Source of the DNA: a virus
Length of the DNA stretch: 32,863 nucleotides
Reading direction: 5' to 3' (one strand)
Virus record (IMG/VR): IMGVR_UViG_3300030102_000690
Span: 1-32,863 of that record
Both the position numbers and the translations under genes were made by a program. Shown piece by piece: positions 19,026 through 21,345 of the stretch (position 1 is its first letter; each line of letters opens with the position of its first letter). The notes under the pieces were generated by a model. That model made no database searches and was not told the origin of the DNA. It saw nothing but the letters and a program-made list of their open reading frames with translations.

Positions 19026-19403
19026 TCAGCTCAAGTCTATCTTAACATTTATATTACCTACATGGCTATGCATTACTTTATCTGGTGCTTTAAACCCAGC
19101 TCTATCTAGTATATCCTTGCTAGCTTCAAGCTGTACATACTCAGATTTAGCTCCACTTGCTAGTCTTAGTAGCTTGTTACTGGCTATCGTAGCATTCATT
19201 CCTATACTGTCTGCTATCTGTTGCATCATATACTGTTGCACATGTGGTGTCTTCAAAGCCTTGCTTGCACTTACTCTACCTGATTCTCCTTGTGCATATC
19301 CAGCTTCTTTACTGGCTTGTTTTACACTGCATCCTTTTGCTACTAGTGTATCAACTAGCTTCTTCTGTTTCTCTGTTATCCTTGTAAGTTCCATGCCGAT
19401 CAT
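19026..19403 (-). CDS. terS: Terminase small subunit
   Basis: This protein has 125 residues. The N-terminal part (TRITEKQKKLVDTLVAKG, then CSVKQASKEAGY) is a helix-turn-helix for recognising phage DNA, followed by SASKALKTPHVQQYM and helices that would form the ring. The C-terminal segment would contact the large subunit. ATG at 19403 or 19394; neither has a clear ribosome site. It is the first gene of the leftward late region, separated from terL by the basic-protein cluster. Confidence 0.85.
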   Translation of the reverse strand: MIGMELTRITEKQKKLVDTLVAKGCSVKQASKEAGYAQGESGRVSASKALKTPHVQQYMMQQIADSIGMNATIASNKLLRLASGAKSEYVQLEASKDILDRAGFKAPDKVMHSHVGNINVKIDLS

Positions 19404-19415
19404 TCTGCGTCAATT

Positions 19416-19444
19416 ATTCTGCTCATGTCAATACATTAATTCAA
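19416..19444 (-). promoter_or_regulatory. Candidate promoter for the leftward late genes
   Basis: On the minus strand TTGAAT (19444-19439) and CAGAAT (19421-19416) are 17 bases apart, each matching 4 of 6 sigma-70 consensus positions. Transcription would start about 6 bases before the first terS ATG, which would make that message almost leaderless and would fit the missing ribosome site. The evidence is weak. Confidence 0.3.
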
Positions 19445-19823
19445 GATTCTTAATATTTGCACTTCGTGTAATCAGCTTTGTGTCAGGATATGCAATGCAG
19501 ACGCATGCCCTTCGGGTTCTCGAAATAGTAAGCCATATTCCACTTCGGTGTATCTCGTTCCTCAATACACACTACGTTACATATCGCTTAGATAATCGTA
19601 GAATCTTACTCACAATTGACACGAATACACACACATCTAACGATTATATCATAGGCATGATGACCGTCCTACAAATCTGCCAGAACCTAAATACCGAAAT
19701 CCAGAAAAGGCAAGCCTGATTTATTTCTCCCTTGCTTGCAAACTTTTTGCCACAATCACTGCTTTGTTTCTTTTCTGCACATCTCGGCTGTGTCAAAAAC
19801 TTTGTCCCCTTTTCTGCACCAAG

Positions 19824-19838
19824 CAACTCGCGGAGTTG
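19824..19838. promoter_or_regulatory. Short perfect hairpin/palindrome before the early operon
   Basis: CAACTC and GAGTTG are separated by GCG. Flanking bases can extend the stem slightly. It lies about 100 bases before the first early gene and could be an operator or RNA hairpin. Confidence 0.35.
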
Positions 19839-19934
19839 TTTCGGTATTGAGAACCATGTCAGATTTATAGGCTTTCGAACCTGTACATATCGTTGTGTGT
19901 GTACTTAATTTTAATCTTAATATAGGAGGTCATA

Positions 19935-20696
19935 ATGGCTTTAGATAATAATATAGAAGTAACTAGTACTAGATTTAGTAAAGATGAATTAATTAACGAT
20001 TATAAAAAACTACAAAAAGAATATGAGAGTAAGACTATTCAATCTATTCTTTCCAAACTATCTTCACCAAGAGGAGTTGAGTTATGCATGTTACATGTAC
20101 TTAACTTTATGATGGGTAATGACATGGTACATAATCCATATGAGATGCAATATGACATTGATAGTCAGACACATGTTCATAGGAAGGCTAATGGTAAAGA
20201 TTCTCTTGGTAATACCATATGGGAAGAAACTGATGAGATGATTCCAGTTGGCAAAATGTCAGCTGTTCCATATTGGGAATCTTTACTTTGGGGTACTCGT
20301 AAGACTGATAAAAATGGTCAGTTTAATGATGCTATTACCAGACAGTTAAACATTGGAGGTAATCAAATCGCAAAGGCTGAACGACGTATCCTAGATCGAG
20401 CATTGGGCAAGAACAGTGACACAGATACACAGTTACGACATCTTGCTCAAGTTGGTAAGACTAACATCGATGTTGCTCAGGATAATCTAAGAATCACTAA
20501 GGTTATCGAGATGTGGTACTTAGCAACTACTGGAGATACATACCAGACATATTCTGAGCAATCTGCTAAGTCAGGTGCTAAGTTGTTAGAGGATCTAGAC
20601 AGAGAAAAACTTATACAATCTGTCTTAAATGGTCAGAACAATGAGGTGACTCAGAAACACGATGCTGATGAATCTCCAGAATCTAACAACGTATAA
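19935..20696 (+). CDS. Unrecognised 253-aa protein, first early gene
   Basis: This protein has 253 residues with a strong AGGAGGT site 5 bases before ATG. The N-terminal 35 residues look helical and charged (KDELINDYKKLQKEYESK). The middle contains two Trp-bearing segments (NTIWEETDEM, PYWESLLWGTR). An acidic, Asn/Gln-rich tail ends the protein. No enzyme motif is visible. As the first gene of the rightward operon it could act early in takeover of the host or in regulation, which is inference from position alone. Confidence 0.75.
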   Translation: MALDNNIEVTSTRFSKDELINDYKKLQKEYESKTIQSILSKLSSPRGVELCMLHVLNFMMGNDMVHNPYEMQYDIDSQTHVHRKANGKDSLGNTIWEETDEMIPVGKMSAVPYWESLLWGTRKTDKNGQFNDAITRQLNIGGNQIAKAERRILDRALGKNSDTDTQLRHLAQVGKTNIDVAQDNLRITKVIEMWYLATTGDTYQTYSEQSAKSGAKLLEDLDREKLIQSVLNGQNNEVTQKHDADESPESNNV

Positions 20697-20706
20697 CTAT
20701 AACATT

Positions 20707-20735
20707 GGGAGTCACCTCATACTGGGGTGGCTCTC
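20707..20735 (+). terminator. Stem-loop after the first early gene
   Basis: GGGAGTCACC (20707-20716) pairs over 10 positions, with G-U pairs allowed, to GGTGGCTCTC (20726-20735), leaving a 9-base loop. There is no T-run after it, so an RNA-processing or stability hairpin is as likely as a terminator. Confidence 0.4.
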
Positions 20736-20752
20736 ATTACATTGAGGCAATC

Positions 20753-20821
20753 ATGACAGACTTATTTAATATCATTGTAATAGCTTGTGGCTTAATTATC
20801 TTGTGTCATATAGCGGTGTAG
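20753..20821 (+). CDS. Possible 22-aa single-span membrane peptide
   Basis: ATG at 20753 with GAGG about 6 bases before it; TAG at 20819. The peptide starts MTDLFN and then has about 15 mostly hydrophobic residues (IIVIACGLIILCHIAV), enough for one membrane helix. The stop is followed at once by a perfect 12-bp hairpin. It is short, so chance is a real alternative. Confidence 0.4.
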   Translation: MTDLFNIIVIACGLIILCHIAV

Positions 20822-20861
20822 AAACCAGTTGTGCCGAACCAAGCCAACCCACAACTGGTTT
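20822..20861 (+). other. Perfect 12-bp stem-loop
   Basis: AAACCAGTTGTG (20822-20833) and CACAACTGGTTT (20850-20861) are exact inverted repeats around a 16-base loop. It starts at the base after the stop of the 22-aa ORF. No T-run follows. Confidence 0.6.
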
Positions 20862-20862
20862 A

Positions 20863-20912
20863 GCACACTCACTCACTACATCGGTGGGGGGTCGCGTTAG
20901 CGAGAGTGTTGC
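20863..20912 (+). other. Stem-loop with inner tetraloop hairpin
   Basis: GCACACTC (20863-20870) pairs with GAGTGTTGC (20904-20912) with one bulged T. Just inside the right arm, TCGC and GCGA enclose GTTA (20892-20903). Confidence 0.45.
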
Positions 20913-20978
20913 CGCGCGAGCGCAATGTTATTTACGCAAGTTTATGAATGATTTGTTAATCAGAATTTGATCTCGATA

Positions 20979-21051
20979 GCACATGATTTCCATCTCGCAT
21001 CAAGGTTTCCCTTCGGCGCGTTGCGACCTTGACGCTTGGAAATCGTAGTGC
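20979..21051 (+). other. Long three-part stem-loop before the 86-aa gene
   Basis: The outer stem is GCAC (20979-20982) with GTGC (21048-21051). The middle stem is GATTTCCA (20985-20992) with TGGAAATC (21037-21044). The inner stem is GCATCAAGGT (20997-21006) with ACCTTGACGC (21026-21035), one A-C mismatch. The 19-base loop contains CCCTTCGG. It ends 24 bases before the ribosome site of the next gene, so it may control it or be a small RNA. Confidence 0.5.
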
Positions 21052-21084
21052 TTTTCGAGGTGTTATAAATTGATGGAGAGAACT

Positions 21085-21345
21085 ATGATAAAGCTAAGTG
21101 AAGTATATAAACATTATGGTGTAGATCATATGTATGATGATGAGTTTACCAGTATTGAGTATTATCGTTTGAAACAAGATGGAGATATCCAGATATGGGA
21201 TGTGATGAAAAATGGTAAGATTGTTTGGGAAGTTTTCTGTAACAAGACACGACGATCACATGCATATCATAGACTAGCTGACGCCATGATGGCTGGTGTA
21301 TTCTGGTATCTTTATCAAAATAAATATAAGTATGTAACGAGTTGA
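21085..21345 (+). CDS. Hypothetical 86-aa early protein
   Basis: I take ATG 21085 because GGAGAGAACT lies just before it; an in-frame ATG at 21070 lies upstream of that site. The 86 residues are rich in Tyr, Asp and Met (KHYGVDHMYDDEF), with a Trp-bearing strand-like middle and a C-terminal helix (AYHRLADAMMAGVFWYLY). Family not recognised. Confidence 0.65.
   Translation: MIKLSEVYKHYGVDHMYDDEFTSIEYYRLKQDGDIQIWDVMKNGKIVWEVFCNKTRRSHAYHRLADAMMAGVFWYLYQNKYKYVTS

Follow-up and report, generated by a model that had tools for sequence, protein, structure and literature searches.

The window, i.e. the whole stretch of DNA that was analysed, comprises all 32,863 bases of an IMG/VR virus record. Comparison of the encoded proteins with the PHROGs placed the large and small terminase subunits, a portal protein (head-tail adaptor), a major head protein and tail proteins on the - strand. 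The + strand carries an early block with a RecE-like exonuclease, a second exonuclease-family protein, an SSB and a Holliday-junction resolvase. Among the window proteins that were scanned, recombination genes and an SSB are present and a polymerase is absent from the PHROGs matches. An RNA polymerase family was not detected among these proteins either, and the host RNA polymerase therefore presumably transcribes the early genes. Judged by the terminase, the closest isolate is the Pelagibacter phage EXVC031P Hodr (65% amino acid identity), so that a Pelagibacter-type marine bacterium is the likely host. Hodr has the same layout, with the terminase/structural block set against the early block. 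When the DNA was compared directly with the phage collection, no relatives were recovered; they were collected by a terminase scan and by a scan with a 124-aa early protein. The following features were recognised in and around the 388 bases between two early genes:

19935-20696, + strand: upstream early gene encoding 253 aa, without family match; homologs with 25-29% aa identity lie upstream of H4 in relatives
20706-20736, + strand: H1, a 14-bp hairpin directly 3' of the stop codon of the 253-aa gene (z -6.24); terminator-like, without a T run
20753-20821, + strand: small ORF for a 22-aa hydrophobic microprotein, MTDLFNIIVIACGLIILCHIAV, predicted to span the membrane once; GAGG upstream
20822-20861, + strand: H2, an exact 12-bp stem with a C/A-rich loop of 16 nt (z -3.89)
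20887-20930, + strand: H3, a GC-rich segment with a GAGTGTT motif (20904-20910)
20968-21060, + strand: H4, a conserved hairpin of 93 bases (z -5.18); 90.7 bits with the covariance model R1 in the window; 22-25 distinct relatives
21007-21017, + strand: invariant bulge strand of H4 (TTCCCTTCGGC region), with invariant or nearly invariant columns; a signature common to plasmids and mobile elements, exact on pSN2
21085-21345, + strand: downstream early gene g91, without family match; start codon about 25 nt past H4; 40-93% aa identity in relatives

An earlier note on this DNA had described a chain of five stem-loops in an untranslated, nearly gene-free stretch. The excess of structure was borne out: the + strand of 20697-21084 folds with -133.4 kcal/mol, compared with -103.2 +/- 5.1 kcal/mol for shuffled sequences (z -5.95), and none of 100 shuffles was as good. 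The - strand is less structured (z -2.69). The exact 12-bp stem is present as described (20822-20833/20850-20861). The 73-base three-part stem (20979-21051) exists as well, but it is only the inner part of the longer hairpin H4. When taken alone, the GC-rich part at 20882-20934 is not more stable than its shuffles (z -0.50). Several relatives carry the same series of hairpins, and the chain is therefore real and recurrent; however, only H4 is constant. In L107 and L103 an upstream gene extends to H4 and the other hairpins are absent. No tRNA or tmRNA was detected in the stretch, and canonical promoters and terminators did not occur above chance. Moreover, no promoter was called on the + strand within 20697-20968, and the search for intrinsic terminators (GC hairpin and T run) gave no site in 19380-21120.

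The description of the stretch as untranslated was wrong in detail. The part between H1 and H2 is coding because it contains the 22-aa ORF with a ribosome-binding site, which encodes MTDLFNIIVIACGLIILCHIAV*, and comparable hydrophobic microproteins (26 aa; for some relatives the sequence that was read covered only the C-terminal part) are encoded at the same position in L084, L091, L092, L094, L113, L122 and other relatives. A hydrophobic microprotein also precedes the H4-like hairpin in the distant contig L400. Those beside H4 in the window, L084, L092, L113, L122 and L400 have about 22-27 aa, and the one in G018/L380 has 49 aa and comes after H4. It is possible that the early-region microprotein is a membrane effector or a small toxin-like product. 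At the position of H1, L084 has a hairpin that is followed by CTCTTTTC. Hairpins of the H2 type were found in seven relatives (L090, L101, L102, L105, L085, L099 and L149), in which the stem sequences differ, all are paired and the loops are C-rich (e.g. CCCAATGCCAAACCCC..TGCC). Covariation of the stem and conservation of the loop CCCAATGCCAAACCCC..TGCC can be seen when the window is compared with L090, L099, L101 and L105. Most relatives contain a GCGAGTGTTG-like motif, which in L084 reads CACGGCGC-GAGTGTT-GCGCCGTG, and in the window, L084, L092, L113 and L149 the GCGAGTGTTG motif is conserved about 50-90 nt upstream of H4. H1 to H3 and the microprotein are accessory, clade-specific neighbours of H4, which alone is universal among the relatives.

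H4 consists of the outer stem P1 (CTCGA.AGCAC/GTGCT..TCGAG), the stem P2 (GATTTCCA/TGGAAATC), an asymmetric UCUC loop and the stem P3 (GCAUCAAGGU/ACCUUGACGC) with a 10-nt 5' bulge, UUUCCCUUCG(G), and a short apical stem P4. Its core can be written as GTMAA-NNN-T-D-CCCTTCGGC-[stem]-NNN-TTGAC, which corresponds to a 10-base bulge in a long hairpin. The TTGAC sequence stays fixed even opposite a mismatched partner (A.G), and this constancy suggests that the sequence itself is recognised; the fixed TTGAC of the stem and the fixed bulge look like protein contacts. With DNA parameters, the folding of H4 is about equally significant on both strands (z -5.38 and -4.51). R1 scores the - strand of the window with 21.9 bits, far below the + strand.

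In BLASTN comparisons, only near-identical phages retained the 5' half of the stretch, and the last ~110 bases recurred with 75-88% DNA identity in many others, i.e. in dozens of related marine podovirus contigs. In the same contigs, g91 is about 40% identical and the 253-aa protein 25-29%. Since the related marine phages keep H4 better than the surrounding proteins, they depend on it. In a RNAalifold consensus of 22 aligned distinct elements, 16 of the 29 pairs are compensated. When the structure described above was applied to the near family, 95.9% of the cells paired, compared with 87.3% in shuffled alignments and at most 50% after sliding by one column; half of the pairs (16/32) change on both sides, which is far above the shuffled and slid controls. 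The covariance model led to the identification of a second, more diverged group of H4 elements upstream of other early genes, and pattern scans added two further groups. When the first two groups were combined (25 distinct members), 23 of the 32 pairs proved to be compensated, a count that leans towards the model to which the alignment was fitted, and 94.7% of the cells pair in this wider set. The earlier note had named a lack of compensatory changes in relatives among the findings that would refute its interpretation. The interpretation has survived this check, and the changes prove that the hairpin form of H4 matters and that its base-pairing is under selection. A pattern match in the viral contig L399 lacks pairing and was judged to be due to chance.

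Members of the main phage group carry H4 in sense orientation throughout, at a short distance (about 20-110 nt) before the first early start codons, whichever gene follows: g91, g124, the gene for a 49-aa protein in G018 or that for a 198-aa protein in L400. Autoregulation by g91 alone was rejected because H4 also precedes g124 and other genes. In G018, terS and the early genes are divergent and H4 lies in the intergenic space that separates them. Neither the window nor any of 18 related loci matched a family of Rfam release 15, whether gathering or relaxed thresholds were applied. The absence of a known family, together with the covariation, supports the part of the earlier interpretation that saw a new structured element of phages, which may act either as a non-coding RNA or in the form of DNA, for instance as an origin.

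The core is also found in bacterial genomes, plasmids and mobile elements. The 20-letter core pattern had 53 matches in 85,000 bacterial and archaeal genomes, compared with ~3.7 that would be expected by simple base counting, and a reversed-pattern control gave no match in 274 + 59 genomes. Most of the 53 matches extend into long hairpins with paired outer stems, and features that the pattern does not require are enriched, namely GT before N-AAGG (42/53), the bulge T (42/53) and an extra pair (41/53). Genes of the rep, relaxase, integrase and transposase types adjoin the core in several bacterial phyla. Among the neighbours are genes for recombinases, for proteins that resemble initiators and relaxases, for an S24 repressor and for transposases, as well as a repeated HNH family, several of these names having been read from the sequence and not taken from database matches. 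For instance, the integrase- and initiator-like neighbours were recognised by eye as a tyrosine recombinase and a Rep_trans-like protein, and others are IS481 and UPF0236 transposases. One Nocardioides genome contains five near-identical, mobile-unit-like core hairpins (L286, L302, L309, L319 and L320), which are located about 100-520 nt upstream of the next gene, mostly of the HNH family, and downstream of the 3' ends of unrelated genes. The covariance model R2 had 31 matches in one Nocardioides genome, but the genuine core is present in only five of them, and the others probably represent GC-rich repeats. In Acidobacteria (L281, L295 and L307), the core hairpin is nested in larger inverted repeats, GCAAAGTAGAAATGTCC/GGACATT..TACTTTGC.

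Among the plasmids, pRPA carries the core downstream of repA (RepA plasmid) and pBs5S5a behind the relaxase gene. Moreover, more than 150 staphylococcal plasmids of the pSN2/ermC RepL type carry it, and in pSTE2 it lies between ermC and repL. The pSN2 core reads AACGTAAATGC-TACCCTTCGG-CTCGC..GCTCG-GCATTGACGTC, with P3 changed on both sides, and is enclosed by a nested palindrome that is about 190 bases long. Plasmid copies were found by R2 independently of the pattern (E 7e-5 and 1e-8). Across the copies, P3 shows compensatory changes (AAGG/CCTT, AATG/CATT, AAGT/ACTT and AAGA/TCTT). A local switch hairpin formed by AAGG and CCTT within the bulge was abandoned as a general mechanism, since the other three combinations replace AAGG/CCTT in pSN2, L400 and L401 and CCCTT is kept. 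Phage G4 and the plasmids pT181, pC194, pE194 and pUB110 did not show the core, nor did any viral contig that is recognisable as a single-stranded DNA phage.

A cis-acting RNA should have a constant strand relative to transcription. The core is antisense to repL in pSTE2 and to the terminase genes in the phage contig L401, it points opposite to the adjoining initiator operons in L277, L280 and L293, and it is placed after genes in other elements. The wobble pairs of the phage elements lean to an RNA of the + strand, with 21 G-U versus 7 A-C cells in 7 versus 3 columns (p = 0.34), whereas the bacterial hairpins show the opposite lean (4 versus 15; p = 0.019, paralogues included). In the folded structures, the G-U totals are about equal on both strands. 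Taken together, the variable orientation and the wobble counts favour, not strongly, a hairpin that would act as single-stranded DNA.

Since the core is present in plasmids and mobile DNA of unrelated bacteria, H4 is probably a signal for the machinery of the host itself. Mobile elements that pass through a single-stranded stage depend on priming sites which the host can read. H4 may thus be a cis-acting hairpin signal for the host machinery, most likely a single-strand initiation site of the sso/ssi type that is common to mobile DNA; we favour this explanation, with a confidence that stays somewhat below even. DNA as the acting form, a host factor and a role in priming are all suggested by sequence comparisons. 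According to this model, the early or replication region would become single-stranded and the strand would fold into the H4 hairpin. A host factor, either RNA polymerase or the primosome, would recognise the T-D-CCCTTCGGC bulge together with the GTMAA/TTGAC stem next to it and would prime synthesis. Plasmids of the pSN2 type replicate by the rolling-circle mechanism and their ssoA is primed by RNA polymerase (reviewed in PMC5703833). The need for priming sites, this report on ssoA and the fixed TTGAC and bulge are the reasons for ranking single-strand initiation first and an early leader RNA second. With more reserve, H4 can be proposed to exemplify an as yet undescribed hairpin signal that phages, plasmids and integrative elements share across bacterial phyla and that a universal host factor would read.

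Strand-specific priming by the host RNA polymerase is one criterion for sso elements. H4 is similar to origins of the ssoA/ssoU type, which are primed by RNA polymerase, in being a long imperfect hairpin on mobile DNA. A long imperfect hairpin on an element with a single-stranded stage is what the core forms on the pSN2-family and relaxase plasmids; the window belongs to a double-stranded DNA tailed phage, for which a single-stranded stage is only presumed. Plasmids of the pSN2 family carry both the H4 core and a reported ssoA (PMC5703833), and the core is only a candidate for this ssoA or for the dso. A convincing -10 element was not seen at the expected distance from TTGAC; a reading of TTGAC as part of an M13/Frpo-like -35/-10 promoter was rejected because no consistent -10 element was visible by eye, and an origin of the G4 primase type was rejected because phage G4 gave no match. 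The CS-6 consensus TAGCGT/A, which we take to be located in the terminal loop of ssoA, is absent from the H4 loops, and the CS-6-like TAGCGA of pSN2 is confined to the opposite strand and has been lost in pNE131. If the pSN2 core is the ssoA of this plasmid, the phage H4 is a new form of a known element; otherwise, it is an undescribed signal.

H4 could also function as a cis-acting RNA of the early transcript, either by binding RNA polymerase like a put RNA and counteracting termination or pausing in the ~6-kb early operon or by controlling the translation of the next gene, an explanation that ranks closely behind single-strand initiation. The sense orientation at a short distance from the first early start codons in all subgroups of the main clade, with varying downstream genes, would be expected from such an RNA, and so would the location in G018, the ribosome-binding site after H4, the excess of G-U over A-C cells in the phages, the much higher R1 score of the + strand and the presumed transcription of the early genes by the host RNA polymerase. 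The antisense copies in pSN2-type plasmids and L401, the copies behind genes elsewhere, the bacterial hairpins without a wobble bias towards the strand of H4 and the lack of a canonical promoter just upstream argue against it. The put RNAs act in antitermination through the zinc-binding domain of the RNA polymerase β' subunit. They are known from lambdoid phages, consist of two adjacent stem-loops of about 70 nt, lie close to early promoters and do not require a partner protein (PMC9378689). The HK022 put RNA and H4 are both structured, about 70-90 nt long and close to the start of early operons, and neither would need a phage protein (PMC9378689); however, H4 forms one long hairpin instead of two stems. 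A position close behind the early promoter fits G018, whereas H4 of the window follows the 253-aa gene. As R2 had no match in the HK022 early region that was read, the core was not seen in G4 and Hodr gave no H4 match even with the filters off, H4 cannot simply be equated with a put RNA or with an origin of the G4 type.

Two further explanations concern the bacterial look-alikes. It is unlikely that these and H4 are recombination or mobility hairpins, i.e. targets or ends for a site-specific recombinase or a single-strand transposase, which have spread with mobile elements. The tyrosine recombinase and transposase neighbours, the repeated Nocardioides copies near the HNH family and after the 3' ends of unrelated genes, and the nested inverted repeats around some copies would fit; however, a conserved apical core with an outer stem that is free to vary is the reverse of what transposon ends look like, and the phage H4 is a single copy that diverges vertically at a fixed syntenic place. 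It is similarly improbable that the phage and bacterial hairpins are unrelated and that their common core reflects convergence or a chance-enriched terminator-like hairpin. The outer stems have nothing in common, the pattern matches were selected and some of the 53 resemble coding coincidences, but the 10-base unpaired bulge, TTGAC and the compensatory changes in P3 recur together, and the plasmid copies were recovered by R2 without the pattern.

A literature search for the core sequence returned unrelated papers only, and a description of the H4 element was not found. As far as could be searched, the link between the marine phage hairpin, the pSN2 palindrome and the other mobile elements is new. 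Should the common core prove to be a single signal, it would point to a general host-read control point of replication or early expression, from Pelagibacter-type phages to staphylococcal plasmids. A covariance model and a seed alignment of H4 now exist and can be used for scanning transcriptomes and genomes. Finally, upstream of the microprotein and the H4 homolog, the first 260 bases of L400, oriented by the motif, contain another hairpin, GTCAAGGA..TCCTTGAC, whose bulge is different and much larger.
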